Source of the DNA: Chloroflexota bacterium
GTDB taxonomy: Bacteria; Chloroflexota; Dehalococcoidia; Dehalococcoidales; JACPPQ01
Assembly: GCA_016190925.1 (NCBI GenBank)
Contig: JACPPQ010000017.1
Span: 1-43,423 of the forward strand
Reading direction: 5' to 3'
Length of the DNA: 43,423 nucleotides
Shown here: positions 34,447 through 43,127 of the stretch, one piece after another
Numbering within the stretch: position 1 is the first letter of the stretch
Layout of the letters: each line of letters begins with the position of its first letter
Notes under the pieces: generated by a model
Database searches by the model: none
What the model saw: the letters and a program-made list of their open reading frames with translations, nothing else
What the model was told of the DNA's origin: nothing
Program-made: the position numbers and the translations under genes

Positions 34447-34614
34447 TTCCTTAAAAGCGAGGTATTTGAGTAAAGTATGTGTCACCTCTTCGCGTTAAAG
34501 TGGCAGAAAGGAGAAAAGCCGCTCGGCTCTGCTAATAGAGGGCGGCAGGGGCGCTAAAAACGTAAAACATAGCCGTATCTCATAGACACCTTTTACAAAT
34601 TTAAGGAGGTGCTC

Positions 34615-35112
34615 ATGCAAGCAGTGGAAACAAACAAACGTTTAGTCAAATTCATTGTCGCTGCCGTTCTTTTCTTCGCCTGGGGTGTGATTCAGGGTGC
34701 TATTCAGGCGCAAGGCCCGGTACATGAGTTCATTGACCAGGGACCGGCTGGCATCATAGTCGGCGCGCACGTCCACATCAATCTCCTGGGATGGGTCTCC
34801 CTGATGGCAGCAGCGCTGGCTTACTACCTGGTGCCGATACTCACCGGCAATCCCATTGCCGCACCACGCCTTATTAACGTGATTTTCTGGGTCTGGGTGA
34901 TTGACCTGGTGATAAATTCAATCTTAATGATTAGCGTAGGCATCGTCGCCGGCAATGCCTTCATCGCCGGGGTCAAAGGTCCGCAGCTAGGCGCAATTAT
35001 GGAGCCATTCATGATACCAATCGGTATATTGAGCATCATATGCGCCATTGTCCTGGTGATGTTTGTGGTGCAGATACTGGCCAGCATTGGCCGGAAAGCA
35101 AGCCAGGCATAG
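34615..35112 (+). CDS. Small four-TM protein resembling a fragment of haem-copper oxidase/NO reductase subunit I
   Basis: 165 aa; RBS aaggaggt; VGAHVHINLLGWVSLMAAALAYYLVP resembles a His-containing helix in CcoN/NorB-like proteins. Confidence 0.65.
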   Translation: MQAVETNKRLVKFIVAAVLFFAWGVIQGAIQAQGPVHEFIDQGPAGIIVGAHVHINLLGWVSLMAAALAYYLVPILTGNPIAAPRLINVIFWVWVIDLVINSILMISVGIVAGNAFIAGVKGPQLGAIMEPFMIPIGILSIICAIVLVMFVVQILASIGRKASQA

Positions 35113-36827: not shown

Positions 36828-38003
36828 TTGGACAAAGAGAAGTTGAAGGGCGTGGCCATCAAAGAAGTGGATAGCCGCCAGGATGAGCTCCGCGACCTGA
36901 GCCTGAAGATACACTCTAATCCGGAACAAGGCTTTCATGAGGTCCAGGCTGCCGCCTGGCTGACCGGGTACCTGGAGAAAAACGGCTTCTCGGTGGAACG
37001 GGGTATCTACGGCCTGGAAACAGCCTTCCGCGCCCGCTACGGCAGTGGAAGACCTGCTATCGCCTTGATGGCGGAGTATGACTCCCTGCCGGCTGTGGGA
37101 CATGCCTGCGGACACAACATCATTTCAACCTCCGCCGCCGGCGCGGGGGTCGCTTCAAAAATGGCCGTCGATAGCCTGAGCGGGAGCGTGCTTGTCATCG
37201 GGACGCCCGCCGAGGAGATATACGGGGGCAAGGCGCTCATGGCGGAAAGGGGAGCCTTTAGCGACCTGGATATAGCCATGATGGTGCATCCGGCGTCTTA
37301 CAATGTCTCTGCCATGGAAGCCCTGGCCTGCCAGACCCTGCAGGTCGAGTTCTTTGGGCGGGCAGCCCACGCCGCCGCCCAGCCGGAGGCAGGAATCAAC
37401 GCCCTGGAAGCCATGCTCCTGTCGTTCAACGCCATCAACTCGCTGAGACAGCACATCAGAAACAGGGCGCGCATCCACGGAATCATCACCGATGGGGGCA
37501 AGGCAGCCAACATCGTCCCGGACCATAGCGCCGGCGATTTCATCGTGCGGGCCGGCGATAATGAGTATCTCACAGACCTGAAAGAGCGGGTGCTGGACTG
37601 CTTCATCGGGGCTGCAACCGCTACCGGCGCGCGCCTGGAGTATAAGTGGGGAGACGTCTGCTACTCCGCACTCCGCAATAACAACACCCTCATCGGGCTA
37701 TTCAACGAAAACATGAAGACCGTGGGGCGAGAGATGCTGCCGGTCATCCCCGGACAGTCATTCGGCAGCACGGACATGGGCAATGTCAGCCAGCTCGTTC
37801 CAAGCATCCACCCCTTTATCGCCATAACGGACGTGAACGTGCTGATTCACTCCCCGCAGTTCGCGGAGGCAGCCGCCTCGGAGAGGGCTATCGAGGGACT
37901 GCTCGATGCCGCCAAGGCTCTGGCCATGACCGTTATCGACTTGCTAGCCAGCCCCGAAACGGTTGCGAAAGCAAAAGAGGAGTTTACACTGGGAAATGAT
38001 TAG
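36828..38003 (+). CDS. M20 family metallo-amidohydrolase
   Basis: 391 aa; IALMAEYDSLPAVGHACGHNIISTSAAGAG, GTPAEEIYGGKALMAERGAF; TTG start. Confidence 0.93.
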   Translation: MDKEKLKGVAIKEVDSRQDELRDLSLKIHSNPEQGFHEVQAAAWLTGYLEKNGFSVERGIYGLETAFRARYGSGRPAIALMAEYDSLPAVGHACGHNIISTSAAGAGVASKMAVDSLSGSVLVIGTPAEEIYGGKALMAERGAFSDLDIAMMVHPASYNVSAMEALACQTLQVEFFGRAAHAAAQPEAGINALEAMLLSFNAINSLRQHIRNRARIHGIITDGGKAANIVPDHSAGDFIVRAGDNEYLTDLKERVLDCFIGAATATGARLEYKWGDVCYSALRNNNTLIGLFNENMKTVGREMLPVIPGQSFGSTDMGNVSQLVPSIHPFIAITDVNVLIHSPQFAEAAASERAIEGLLDAAKALAMTVIDLLASPETVAKAKEEFTLGND

Positions 38004-39135
38004 GGTAGGCGTTCCGAGAGCTTTGCTGTATTATCAGTACTATCCCATGTGGAAGACCTTTTTCGAAAGCCTGGGAGCGGAGGTAGTAGTGTCACCCACG
38101 ACTACCCAGGCGATGGTATCCTCCGGCGCTTCCCGGGTGGTTGCCGAGACCTGCCTTCCAGCTAAGGTCTTCCTGGGCCATACGCTTACCCTGGCGGACA
38201 AGTGCGACTTCATGTTTATTCCGGTGGTGCGCAGCGTAAGAAAAAAGACCTACAACTGCTCCAAGTTCCTCGGCCTGCCGGATATGTGCCGGGCGGTTAT
38301 CCCGGAGTCGCCGCCCATCCTGGAACCGGAGATAGACGTCAACAGGGGTCAGCGCGACCTCTACCTGGCTATATACCGGCTGGGACGGCGCTTCACCTGG
38401 AACCCGCGCAAAGTGAAACAGGCGGCGCAGGCAGCATGGCAATCGCACCTGGATTATCTCAACCTTATGTCAAGTGATAAATTAACCCCGCCGCAGGCAA
38501 TCGAAAGATTAACCGGGACGTCTCAGCCGAGCCTGTTTGGTGACAGACTCGAAATCCCCCTTAATCCCTTCAGGGTGAACCTTCAGGATGAACCCCCTTT
38601 TACAAAGGGAGACATTCCACATTCTCCTGTCTCTCATTCCCTGGAGAAACGGAACGGACAGAAGAAAAATTCCGAAATGTCAGGCACTCACAAAGCCACA
38701 ATTGCCGTAATCGGACACTCCTATATCCTCTATGACGAGCACATCAGCCATCGCATCATCCATCGTCTCGAGCAGGCCGGAGCAAAGGTGCTCACACCGG
38801 ATATGCTGATGCGGCAGGAGCTCGAGGCAGCCGTAATAAAGATTACCGGCAGGGTCTACTGGACGCAGGAAGAGGAGGTAGTCGGGGCAGGTGTGCATTA
38901 CCTTGAAAGCGCCGTTGACGGCATTATCGGCTTGACCACCTTCGGCTGCGGGCCTGACTCCCTGATGATGGACGTGGTGCGCCGGCAGGCCACCAAACTG
39001 AAGAACGTGCCTTTCATGAGCCTTACCCTGGACGAGCACACGGCAGAAGGGGGACTAATCACCCGTCTAGAGGCTTTTCTCGACATGCTCCAGAGGAAGA
39101 AAAGGGGGAAGTCAGAAGTATGCGCCTCGGCCTGA
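37996..39135 (+). CDS. DUF2229/HgdB-like (2-hydroxyacyl-CoA dehydratase superfamily) protein 1
   Basis: 379 aa from ATG 37996, overlapping the M20 stop; MIRVGVPRALLYYQYYPMWKTFFESLGAEVVVSPTTT, CLPAK, CGPDS; contains a repeat-derived linker. Confidence 0.85.
   Translation: MIRVGVPRALLYYQYYPMWKTFFESLGAEVVVSPTTTQAMVSSGASRVVAETCLPAKVFLGHTLTLADKCDFMFIPVVRSVRKKTYNCSKFLGLPDMCRAVIPESPPILEPEIDVNRGQRDLYLAIYRLGRRFTWNPRKVKQAAQAAWQSHLDYLNLMSSDKLTPPQAIERLTGTSQPSLFGDRLEIPLNPFRVNLQDEPPFTKGDIPHSPVSHSLEKRNGQKKNSEMSGTHKATIAVIGHSYILYDEHISHRIIHRLEQAGAKVLTPDMLMRQELEAAVIKITGRVYWTQEEEVVGAGVHYLESAVDGIIGLTTFGCGPDSLMMDVVRRQATKLKNVPFMSLTLDEHTAEGGLITRLEAFLDMLQRKKRGKSEVCASA
38551..38610 (+). repeat. Dispersed repeat located in-frame inside a CDS
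   Basis: gaaatcccccttaatccc...cccccttttacaaaggga matches the intergenic gaaatccctcttaatccccctttgcgaaaggggga at 116-150. Confidence 0.7.
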
Positions 39136-40193
39136 CTCACATGGGCAACCTTTACGTCGGCATAAGGGGTATAGCCAGCAAAGTTGGCTGCGAGCTGGTG
39201 GTTACGCCGCCCACAACCCAGCTCACCCTCTCCCTGGGCGTGAAATACTCACCGGAGACAGTCTGCCTGCCTTTCAAGCTCCAGCTGGGCAACATGATTG
39301 AGGCGCTGGAGATGGGGGCGGACACGCTGGTGATGCCGGGCGGACCCGGCCCGTGCCGGTTCGGCTATTACAACAAACTCCACAAAATGATTCTGCACGA
39401 GATGGACTACAAATTTCACCTGGTAACCCAGGAGCGCGGTATAATGCATATTATAAGGTCTCTCACCGGCGGCGCTCCCCTGCAACAGGTGATAGACGGC
39501 TTCCGTTTCGGCATCGCCAAGCTGAACGCGATAGAAAATCTCGAACGGCTGGCGCACAAGATGAGGGCCATAGAGCGGAACAGGGGGGAAGCCACCCGAA
39601 TCTTCAGAGAGTCTGTCAAGGCCATTGACGAAACTGAAGACCATAAGTCATTCAAGCAGATCAGGAAAGAATACGAACAGAAGCTCACGAGCCTTCCTAC
39701 AGTCGAATCACCTGCTCCTTTAAAGATTGGCATAACTGGAGAAGTCTTCATCGTGCTAGACCCGTTTGCCAACATGGATATAGAAATCGAGCTTGGTAAG
39801 CTGGGGGTTGAAGTCAGGCGCACACTCTTCATCGGCGACTGGGTGAAGCTCAACCCATTCATCTACAAACTCGGCCTGCGAGAAAAGGACAGGAGCCACA
39901 GGGCGGCGCTGCCGTACCTCGCACGCCATGTCGGAGGAGATGGCTGGCAGTCGGTAGGCGAAAAGGTGCTGCATGCCAGGGATTGGGACGGACTGATTCA
40001 CATCGAGCCCTTCGGCTGCGTGCCGGAAATAATGGCGCGCAATATCATGCCCTACACCAAAGAAGCTCTGCCGGTGCTCGATATCATTTTCGATGAGCAC
40101 ACCGGAAGGGCGGGGGTAATCAATCGTCTCGAAGCATTTGTCGACATGATACGTCGGAAAAAACGGAAGAGGAAAGTCCAAGTATGCGCATAG
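39120..40193 (+). CDS. DUF2229/HgdB-like protein 2
   Basis: 357 aa; MRLGLTHMGNLYVGIRGIASKVGCELVVTPPTT, SPETVCLPFKLQLGN, EPFGCVPEIMARNIMP; overlaps upstream gene by 16 nt. Confidence 0.85.
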   Translation: MRLGLTHMGNLYVGIRGIASKVGCELVVTPPTTQLTLSLGVKYSPETVCLPFKLQLGNMIEALEMGADTLVMPGGPGPCRFGYYNKLHKMILHEMDYKFHLVTQERGIMHIIRSLTGGAPLQQVIDGFRFGIAKLNAIENLERLAHKMRAIERNRGEATRIFRESVKAIDETEDHKSFKQIRKEYEQKLTSLPTVESPAPLKIGITGEVFIVLDPFANMDIEIELGKLGVEVRRTLFIGDWVKLNPFIYKLGLREKDRSHRAALPYLARHVGGDGWQSVGEKVLHARDWDGLIHIEPFGCVPEIMARNIMPYTKEALPVLDIIFDEHTGRAGVINRLEAFVDMIRRKKRKRKVQVCA

Positions 40194-41263
40194 GCATACC
40201 TCACATGGGCAATGTATGGGTGACCGTCAAGGCCCTGCTCAAAGGGCTGGATGTCGAATGCGTTGTGCCGCCGATGAGCACGCGGCGCACCCTCTCCCTG
40301 GGCGTCAGGTACTCGCCGGAAGGGCTGTGCCTGCCTTTCAAGCTTACCCTGGGAAACCTGATTGAAGCCGCAGAAATGGGAGCAGACGTTCTGCTCATGC
40401 CCGGCGGCTCCGGCATCTGCCGGCTGGGATACTACGGCAACATCCAGCAGCAAATCCTTGATGAGATGGGATTCAAGGTGGAGGTCAAGGCCATCGGAGT
40501 CTCGGACCGCAAGCTGTTCGGCGTGCTGGCGCTGATAAGAAGCCTGCCGAACAAGCCCTCCTGGTCTGCCATACTATCATCCTACCGCTTCGGCATGGCC
40601 AAGCAAAACTCCCTGGACAGGATAGAGATGCAGGTGCAGAAGGTACGGCCGGTAGAGCAGACGAAGGGAACCGCCAACAGGATATATGATAAGGCCATCA
40701 AAGCCGTTGACGCCGCTGACGATTATGATGCGCTTAAGAGCGCAGAGGCGGAGCACGCCGTCCAGCTTAACCAGGTGCCGAGAAATGGACGCAAACCGCT
40801 GCTGGTCGGCATAACGGGAGAGTTCTATGTGCTGCTTGAACCATTTTCCAACCTGGATGTAGAGGACGAACTGGGTAAGCTGGGGGTTGAGGTGAGAAGA
40901 ACCACCTTTATTTCCAAGTGGACCAGATTCAGCCTGTTTCTTAACGCAATGGGGCTGAACGAGAAGCAGAGGATTCACCGCGCAGCGATGCCCTACCTGA
41001 AACGGGACATCGGCGGTGACGGCTGGGAATCGGTGGGGGAAAAGGTGCTCCATTCAAGGGAGTACGACGGCATAGTGCACCTTGCGCCGTTTACCTGCAT
41101 GCCGGAAATAGTGGCGCAGAATATCATGCCTTCGACTAAAGAGAAAATCCCGGTGCTGACTCTTCTGTGCGACGAGCAAATGGGCAAACCGGGGATGCTG
41201 ACCCGCCTGGAGGCCTTCGTCGACCTGCTGGAGCGCAGGCGGAAGATACCAAGTAGCCAGTAG
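40184..41263 (+). CDS. DUF2229/HgdB-like protein 3
   Basis: 359 aa; MRIGIPHMGNVWVTVKALLKGLDVECVVPPMST, SPEGLCLPFKLTLGN, APFTCMPEIVAQNIMP; overlaps upstream gene by 10 nt. Confidence 0.85.
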   Translation: MRIGIPHMGNVWVTVKALLKGLDVECVVPPMSTRRTLSLGVRYSPEGLCLPFKLTLGNLIEAAEMGADVLLMPGGSGICRLGYYGNIQQQILDEMGFKVEVKAIGVSDRKLFGVLALIRSLPNKPSWSAILSSYRFGMAKQNSLDRIEMQVQKVRPVEQTKGTANRIYDKAIKAVDAADDYDALKSAEAEHAVQLNQVPRNGRKPLLVGITGEFYVLLEPFSNLDVEDELGKLGVEVRRTTFISKWTRFSLFLNAMGLNEKQRIHRAAMPYLKRDIGGDGWESVGEKVLHSREYDGIVHLAPFTCMPEIVAQNIMPSTKEKIPVLTLLCDEQMGKPGMLTRLEAFVDLLERRRKIPSSQ

Positions 41264-41272
41264 CCAGAAAAT

Positions 41273-41423
41273 CTAGTGTAGTGCCTCAAAGATTACTTTA
41301 CAATCATCACACTCGTGTTGTCATTCCAGCGAAGGCTGGAATCCAGTATCCCCAACCACCTGGATTCCGTATCAGGTACGGAGTAACTGACGTTGTTAGG
41401 GTGTTATTGTTACACTACACTAG
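41273..41423. mobile_element. MITE-like 151-bp inverted-repeat element carrying a composite hairpin repeat
   Basis: Perfect 11-bp ends CTAGTGTAGTG / CACTACACTAG; similar length and TIR to 15693-15847. Confidence 0.6.
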
Positions 41424-41582
41424 TTTCTGGTGTTTGGGATTTGGTTATTGGAATTTGTTTGGTTATTGTATCTTGGTTATTGGTAATTTACGTTGGCAGG
41501 GCGAATTGCTTCAAAATCGTACTATACCATAAAATGACTGCTCTAAAAACTTGATTCGGATAAGAGTGATATTGGAGGTCTT

Positions 41583-43127
41583 ATGCGGGCTATCGTAAGT
41601 GTCTGGGACAAAACAGGTGTAACCGATTTCGCCAGGGGACTGGTGCGGCTGGGCTACGAGGTAGTCAGCACCGGCGGCACCAAGAAAGCGCTGGCCGAAG
41701 CGGGCGTGCCGGTGAAAAGCATTTCGGATATTACCGGCTTTCCTGAGATTCTGGATGGCAGGGTGAAGACCCTGCACCCGTCTGTGCATGGCGGCATCCT
41801 TGCACGACGCGACCTTCCCGACCACATGTCCCAACTGGCTAAAAACAAAATCGAGACCATCGACCTGGTAGCGGTGAACCTCTATCCTTTTGTCCAGACT
41901 GTTTCGAAAGAGGGCGTCACATTAGAGGATGCGCTGGAGAACATCGATATCGGCGGGCCGACGCTGATTCGCGCGTCAGCCAAGAATTTCCCCGGCGTGA
42001 TTGTGGTGGTAGACCCGGCTGACTACGGAGCGGTGCTGGAGAAGCTGGCAAAGGGCGGGCTGGAGCTTGCCGACCGCAAACGGCTGGCGCAGAAGGCTTT
42101 TCAGCATGTGGCTACCTATGATACCGCCATTTCACAATATTTGCGACAGGGCGAGGAGGGTTTTCCTGTGGAGATGACCGTGGCCATGAAGAAGCGCTAC
42201 AGCCTGCGCTACGGCGAGAACCCGCACCAGCAGGCTGCTTTCTACGCCGAGCAAGCGGTGGGGGCAAAAGGCGCGACGGGTATCACCTGGGCAGAGCAGC
42301 TCTGGGGGAAGGAGCTATCTTTTAACAACATCCTGGATGCCGACGCCGCCTGGGGGGTGGTCACCGATTTTGCGGCACCGACAGTGGCTATTATTAAACA
42401 CACCAATCCCTGCGGCCTGGCCTGCCACGATGATATTGCCGAGGCGTACCGCCGGGCGCTCACCGGCGACCCTATAGCGGCGTTCGGGGGAATTGTGGCA
42501 ACAAACCGGCCGGTCGATGCGTCTGCCGCAGGAGAGATTGTCAAGACCTTCTACGAGATTATCATCGCGCCAAAATATGAGGCAAAGGCGCTTGAGCTAC
42601 TTAAGAAGAGGAAAGACCTGCGCATACTGCTCGCCGAGCTTCCTCCTGGATACGGCAAAGCTGAGCCGCCCTACATCGATTTCCGTAGAGTTAAAGGCGG
42701 GTTCCTGGTGCAGACCTCGGACACGCTGCCCGAAAGCAGTGTCGAGTTGAAGACCGTTACCAAACGCGCGCCAACCGGGTCTGAGGTAGAGGACCTGCTT
42801 TTCGCCTGGCGGGTGGTGAAGCATGTAAAGTCCAATGCCATTGTCCTGGCCAAGGGAAAAACATTGCTGGGGATGGGAGCGGGACAGCCCAGCCGCATTG
42901 TCAGCGCTCAGATAGCGGTGGAGAGGGCGGGAGATAAGGTATCCGGAAGCGTGCTGGCCTCCGACGCCATGTTCCCCTTCCCGGACGTGGTGGAACTGGC
43001 TGCCAAGGGCAAGGTGACAGCCATTATCCAACCCGGCGGCTCGATACGGGACGAAGACTCCATCAAGGCGGCGGATGAGCGCGGCATAGCCATGGTATTC
43101 ACCAGGGTAAGGCATTTCAGGCATTAA
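41583..43127 (+). CDS. purH: Bifunctional AICAR transformylase/IMP cyclohydrolase
   Basis: 514 aa; GGTKKALAEAGVPVKSISDITGFPEILDGRVKTLHPSVHGGILARR, LRYGENPHQQAAFY, KHTNPCGLA. Confidence 0.97.
   Translation: MRAIVSVWDKTGVTDFARGLVRLGYEVVSTGGTKKALAEAGVPVKSISDITGFPEILDGRVKTLHPSVHGGILARRDLPDHMSQLAKNKIETIDLVAVNLYPFVQTVSKEGVTLEDALENIDIGGPTLIRASAKNFPGVIVVVDPADYGAVLEKLAKGGLELADRKRLAQKAFQHVATYDTAISQYLRQGEEGFPVEMTVAMKKRYSLRYGENPHQQAAFYAEQAVGAKGATGITWAEQLWGKELSFNNILDADAAWGVVTDFAAPTVAIIKHTNPCGLACHDDIAEAYRRALTGDPIAAFGGIVATNRPVDASAAGEIVKTFYEIIIAPKYEAKALELLKKRKDLRILLAELPPGYGKAEPPYIDFRRVKGGFLVQTSDTLPESSVELKTVTKRAPTGSEVEDLLFAWRVVKHVKSNAIVLAKGKTLLGMGAGQPSRIVSAQIAVERAGDKVSGSVLASDAMFPFPDVVELAAKGKVTAIIQPGGSIRDEDSIKAADERGIAMVFTRVRHFRH

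Follow-up and report, generated by a model that had tools for sequence, protein, structure and literature searches.

What kind of enzyme is encoded by an operon that joins an M20 hydrolase to three unlike HgdB/DUF2229-type proteins, and where is the activase on which such proteins would depend? We addressed this question for a stretch of 43,423 nucleotides, here called the window, which is the entire contig C137 of a draft genome of 2.3 Mb in 178 contigs. The four open reading frames (M20, A, B and C) lie exactly at the coordinates given in the original prediction and overlap by 8, 16 and 10 nt in the ORF listing of the window (Table 1). The named relatives of C come from Chloroflexota and comprise a Chloroflexi MAG, a 'Dehalococcoides sp.' MAG and a Dehalococcoidales MAG.

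Table 1 Coordinates of the operon and its 3' flank in the window.
Feature	Position	Strand	Basis
M20D-type metallohydrolase, first gene of the operon	36828..38003	+	TTG start; Pfam, TIGR01891 and PDB matches
Subunit A, 379 aa, ATG start	37996..39135	+	DUF2229 and C-terminal HGD-D segment; Cys conservation; Foldseek
In-frame insert within A, ~residues 172-218	38509..38649	+	Alignment, lengths, repeat copies in the genome
Subunit B, 357 aa	39120..40193	+	DUF2229; 49% identity to C; tree clade with other B genes
Subunit C, 359 aa	40184..41263	+	DUF2229; conserved Cys; HadC/DCCP/BzdN-like fold
Repeat-rich spacer from C to purH; place of the activase gene in relatives	41264..41582	.	blastn
purH	41583-43127		Domain/family profile matches

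Domains, cysteines and predicted fold of A, B and C

In Pfam searches, A matched DUF2229 (7.5e-51) together with the C-terminal part of HGD-D (2.7e-7), and B and C matched DUF2229 over their N-terminal part only (6.8e-11 and 2.9e-10, respectively). With 173.3 bits for A, 42.6 for B and 40.6 for C at a gathering score of 29.4, all three are members of DUF2229 (PF09989). The cysteine skeleton proposed for the three paralogs is real. Residues C53, C88 and C318 of A were invariant in 58 sequences, C70 was present in 57 of them and the C-terminal C376 in 45. C49, C79 and C305 of C were invariant in 60 sequences, with C329 occurring in 57, and C49, C79 and C300 were conserved in the five sequences of B, where C356 is found in addition. 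The known subunit BzdO binds a [4Fe-4S] cluster on three cysteines (Cys95/128/380) and BzdN a double cubane on six (PMC11971306). Because their core comprises three to four conserved cysteines and not six, A, B and C look like single-[4Fe-4S]-cluster subunits.

To the level of detail offered by single-chain, shallow (4-5 sequences) models of moderate confidence, the predicted folds agree with this assignment to the BCR/HAD superfamily. Using the AlphaFold models of A (pLDDT 67, pTM 0.62) and C (pLDDT 65, pTM 0.67) as Foldseek queries, all 13 PDB hits of A and 16 of the 17 of C at E ≤ 1e-3 were HadBC, DCCP, BzdNO or MbdON, with a probability of 1.0. Both A and C carry C-x-P and T-R-[LI]-E-A-F motifs that line up with those of HadC, BzdN and DCCP. 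In HadC, the cysteine of C-x-P falls on the third cluster cysteine and T-R-[LI]-E-A-F on the end of the protein; the first two cysteines correspond by motif and spacing only. For B, membership in the superfamily follows from its 49% identity to C. Domains, cysteine motifs and, for A and C, fold thus back the superfamily placement given in the original prediction.

At the sequence level the three proteins stand well apart from characterized families. Comparison of C with a small HGD-D set by hhalign reached a probability of 16-17% and was convincing at the C-terminal motif alone. When B, or profiles built for A and C, served as queries in sequence-only searches of the PDB, nothing significant was returned, DCCP being the sole PDB family hinted for A (E 0.042). 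Among the NCBIfam models, no equivalog matched A, B or C over its cut-off, and neither the class I benzoyl-CoA reductase B/C/N/O models nor NF040772 (double_cubane) matched any of them. In the tree, B and the B genes from four further loci form one clade at a support of 1.0, three of these loci reading A-B-C-ACT and one A-B-ACT (ACT, activase); judged by this phylogeny, B is an older paralog of C.

The 379 residues of A are not the length of its family, because the insert of ~47 residues is unique to this genome: it was absent from 57 aligned relatives, in which A measures 314-344 aa, two A-C fusions aside. At a threshold of E ≤ 1, 24 partial copies of the insert were found elsewhere in the genome, and eight of these reach E < 1e-3; owing to this recurrence, it seems that a dispersed repeat of palindromic type was inserted into the coding frame of A and left the frame intact. 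In the model of A, the insert region is a low-confidence loop that is probably disordered. Short copies of the spacer between C and purH were detected by blastn in the window and on contig C129. Dispersed intergenic repeats also occur at 41281-41400 of the window, 3' of C, where their translation is VIPAKAGIQ-like, and at 1260-1490 of locus L017, 5' of the activase gene.

The activase and the split of the cluster

Searching the whole genome with PF01869 returned three activases over the cut-off, one on contig C70, two on contig C129 and none on contig C137. The reported absence of an activase therefore holds for the window; as a feature of the system it does not, since the genome encodes a TIGR00241 activase (185 bits at a cut-off of 125), and the orphan activase that the original prediction proposed to search for is not missing. 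This protein, ACT70, is encoded on contig C70 as a lone activase between purM and plsX (neighbors named from sequence), matches HadI, HgdC, DCCP-R and MbdQ in the PDB and is ~73-81% identical to most A/C-linked activases of the order. Lack of an activase in the window thus need not mean an activase-free mechanism. Residues C128 and C167 of the activase were invariant in 59 sequences, as was, in the same conservation analysis, a C-terminal extension of the pattern C289-x2-C292-x3-C296...C315, a Cys4 motif that is likely to bind an additional cluster or a metal. The other two activases form a quartet on contig C129 with two HGD-D proteins, which resembles class I benzoyl-CoA reductase or HAD systems. 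At this locus (L016 1794-8524) a thiolase-like gene precedes the two HGD-D proteins and two activases, and the scores of the quartet reach none of the BCR or HAD equivalog cut-offs.

Relatives of the same order and class, whose loci represent a partial sampling, show the order M20-A-(B)-C-ACT-plsX at dozens of loci. The cluster mostly lies between nusA-infB-rbfA (divergent, upstream) and plsX-trxA-trxB-dnaB (often downstream). For 54 of the 65 B/C-like ORFs of relatives with enough 3' sequence, ACT is located at most 1.6 kb downstream; among the other 11, L119 and L136 are also ACT-adjacent with overlapping frames, and in L151 ACT stands beside a fused C-type frame. In the genome of the window, M20-A-B-C lies beside purH, and ACT-plsX is on contig C70. 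Because relatives carry these genes as one cluster, this lineage has undergone a split with its break between C and the activase, as seen at the contig level of a draft genome. Linkage in close relatives, the loss of which would have spoken against the original prediction, is kept there; it is the present genome that lost the link to its activase. Repeats flank both sides of the split and are possible recombination sites.

Several other accounts of this arrangement were rejected. The GC content of contigs C137 (0.541) and C70 (0.544) and their tetranucleotides agree, which makes wrong binning of the activase contig unlikely. The two are not adjoining contigs, as their ends do not overlap, and neither purM nor purH is an ancestral neighbor, both being absent from the loci of relatives.

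That A, C and ACT form one machine is best supported by fused forms and intermediates. Many genomes of the class, from more distant relatives, encode single proteins of ~1,400 residues instead of split genes. The split-gene profiles map on these proteins collinearly: two ACT copies come first, the second with a Cys4 linker, and A and C (with its paralog B) correspond to the C-terminal half, A preceding C. In loci L122 (337-2463) and L123 (964-3096), A and C share one frame of ~710 aa that is followed by ACT. From synteny and fusion, we infer that ACT70 is the partner of A, B and C.

At some loci of relatives, ACT-plsX is present, often together with M20, and A and C are not (L137, L138, L152-L155); M20-ACT-plsX is kept in L138, L153, L154 and L155. 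The plsX-side activases of L154 (7084-7935) and L155 (6766-7632), from genomes with no A/C at the site, are devoid of the C-terminal Cys4 extension. Genomes that have no A/C at the site still encode a solitary HGD-D protein of ~341 aa, and this co-occurrence in a dozen genomes makes it plausible that the solitary protein is a second client of the plsX-linked ACT. Its counterpart in the genome of the window is a 345-aa HGD-D protein on contig C122 (L018 2943-3980), the gene of which lies between a metallo-beta-lactamase-fold gene and a putative glyceraldehyde-3-phosphate dehydrogenase-like gene, the latter named from sequence.

The M20 hydrolase and neighboring genes

The first gene of the operon encodes the M20 domains PF01546 and PF07687 and scores 213.4 bits as a TIGR01891 amidohydrolase (cut-off 153.75). 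Its nearest solved relatives are HmrA (5e-76) and the Xaa-Arg dipeptidase PM20D2 (7.2e-68), and the HACGHN and PAEE motifs are kept in the alignment with HmrA. Its linkage to the paralogs is conserved across relatives, M20 being located upstream of 33 of the 57 B/C-like ORFs with enough 5' sequence. Part of this linkage may be positional, because the region is syntenic. Two loci, L128 and L139 (the latter outside the class), show M20-A-C-ACT with no plsX, trx, dnaB or nusA in view.

The MFS transporter gene upstream of the operon, which had been considered together with it, occurs in no relative's locus among those examined, so that we place it outside the system. Also near the operon, at 34609-35112 of the window, a 167-aa protein is encoded that gives a partial match only, to haem-copper oxidase subunit I (COX1/ccoN, 1.9e-10). 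No CoA ligase, beta-oxidation, CoA-transferase or dehydrogenase genes and no HAD pathway genes were seen linked to the cluster. With this gene content and a site among nusA-infB-rbfA and plsX-trxA-trxB-dnaB, the catabolic half of the suggested undescribed reductive or catabolic complex finds no gene support, and none of the linked genes hints at the breakdown of amino acids or aromatic compounds. A limited literature search found no characterized orthologs of the A/B/C set or of the four-gene set.

Proposed mechanism, alternatives and known systems

We consider it likely that the system is an ATP-dependent Fe-S reductase of two components from the DUF2229 branch of the BCR/HAD superfamily, with the operon encoding its catalytic half. 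In HAD, the activase gives an ATP-driven electron to the cluster of the beta-subunit, from which it reaches the active-site cluster (PMC11574389). By analogy, a HAD-like electron scheme is the one best supported here for A/B/C and ACT. A would pair with C and/or B, and in each subunit the three conserved cysteines would hold one [4Fe-4S] cluster. In the homodimer of the activase, C128 and C167 from both monomers would bridge a single [4Fe-4S] cluster, and ATP hydrolysis by this homodimer would push an electron of low potential into the dimer formed from A/B/C. The electron would then move from ACT to one of A/B/C, on to its partner and finally to a small substrate, which the dimer would reduce or radically dehydrate. 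More tentatively, M20 might act in the same pathway, e.g., by cleaving an amide or dipeptide that contains the substrate. ACT70 could also serve other clients instead, such as the solitary HGD-D protein on contig C122. A far-reaching version, which we regard as quite unlikely in its entirety, would be a hitherto undescribed ATP-driven Fe-S enzyme of three unlike HgdB-type subunits with a dedicated M20D hydrolase, acting on an amide-released, possibly non-CoA substrate, whose activase is shared with the solitary HGD-D protein and can outlive one client even in small-genome relatives.

ACT and A/B/C might instead be a reductive activator that passes low-potential electrons to another metalloenzyme and is not a metabolic enzyme itself. 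Such a maintenance or activating role is a serious rival because of the conserved site among housekeeping genes, and the occurrence of the cluster in many families of an anaerobic order, with no CoA-ligase or beta-oxidation genes seen linked, would suit it. In methyl-coenzyme M reductase (MCR), a metallocofactor is known to be activated at the expense of ATP, according to the account in PMC12176620, and the activase does score against methanogenesis marker 15. However, this score of 131.9 bits is far under the cut-off of 455.75, no client enzyme is linked, and the predicted folds of A and C are those of catalytic HAD/BCR subunits, so that an activator appears unlikely to us. Still less can be said for a double-cubane reductase of the DCCP type, in which A, B or C would carry [8Fe-9S] and reduce small molecules. 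The best fold matches of A and C include DCCP, which also provides the one sequence hint for A, but a cluster of the BzdN type needs six cysteines (PMC11971306), whereas A has four plus C376, B three plus C356 and C three plus C329, and the double_cubane model matches none of them; we consider this reading very improbable.

The separation from the activase and the repeat that inflates A could also mean that A/B/C are drifting or non-functional in this genome. Relatives that retain M20-ACT-plsX with no A/C exist, and the repeat-derived insert is found in this A alone. All four frames are nevertheless open and overlapping, cysteines and motifs are intact, B is retained and the insert is in frame within a probably disordered loop, which together render decay highly unlikely. 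A doubtful but tenable view concerns M20, which may share a common chromosomal site with ACT-plsX and be unrelated to A/B/C, as it stands beside ACT-plsX even at the four loci with no A and C. This merely positional linkage is at odds with L128 and L139, where M20-A-C-ACT occurs outside the usual surroundings, and with the present genome, in which M20 stands with A/B/C and ACT-plsX is located elsewhere.

DUF2229 proteins are widespread in anaerobes and have the parts of a strong reductase; a limited literature search found no reaction assigned to them. The split form provides separately expressible subunits, a named activase partner and, with M20, a candidate upstream enzyme, and thereby makes the reaction approachable.

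The two-component reductase that we favor is a known kind of machine, present here as a split three-subunit variant. It shares with HadBC and HadI the predicted fold, putative three-cysteine clusters, the C-x-P and TR(I/L)EAF motifs and an ASKHA activase. However, A resembles HadBC in its C-terminal segment only, B and C hardly do so at the sequence level, the activase differs from HadI in its extra Cys4 extension, and no linked HAD pathway genes were seen. BzdNO and MbdON with their activases have the same fold and ATP-driven electron input; in contrast to these, A/B/C do not contain the double-cubane cysteine set, and a separate BCR/HAD-like quartet is encoded on contig C129. The two-component, ATP-driven DCCP:DCCP-R system also has this fold, but the subunits described here carry three to four core conserved cysteines instead of six and are hetero-paralogs, not a homodimer. 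For M20 itself the closest known proteins are HmrA and PM20D2, the metal-site motifs being kept in the alignment with HmrA. The fused activase-DUF2229 proteins, annotated, e.g., as CoA-substrate-specific enzyme activase and with no function found described in a limited literature search, consist of the same parts in the same order. Compared with these, A, B and C are separate in the present genome, C is duplicated as B, an M20 hydrolase leads the operon, and a single copy of the activase is encoded on another contig.
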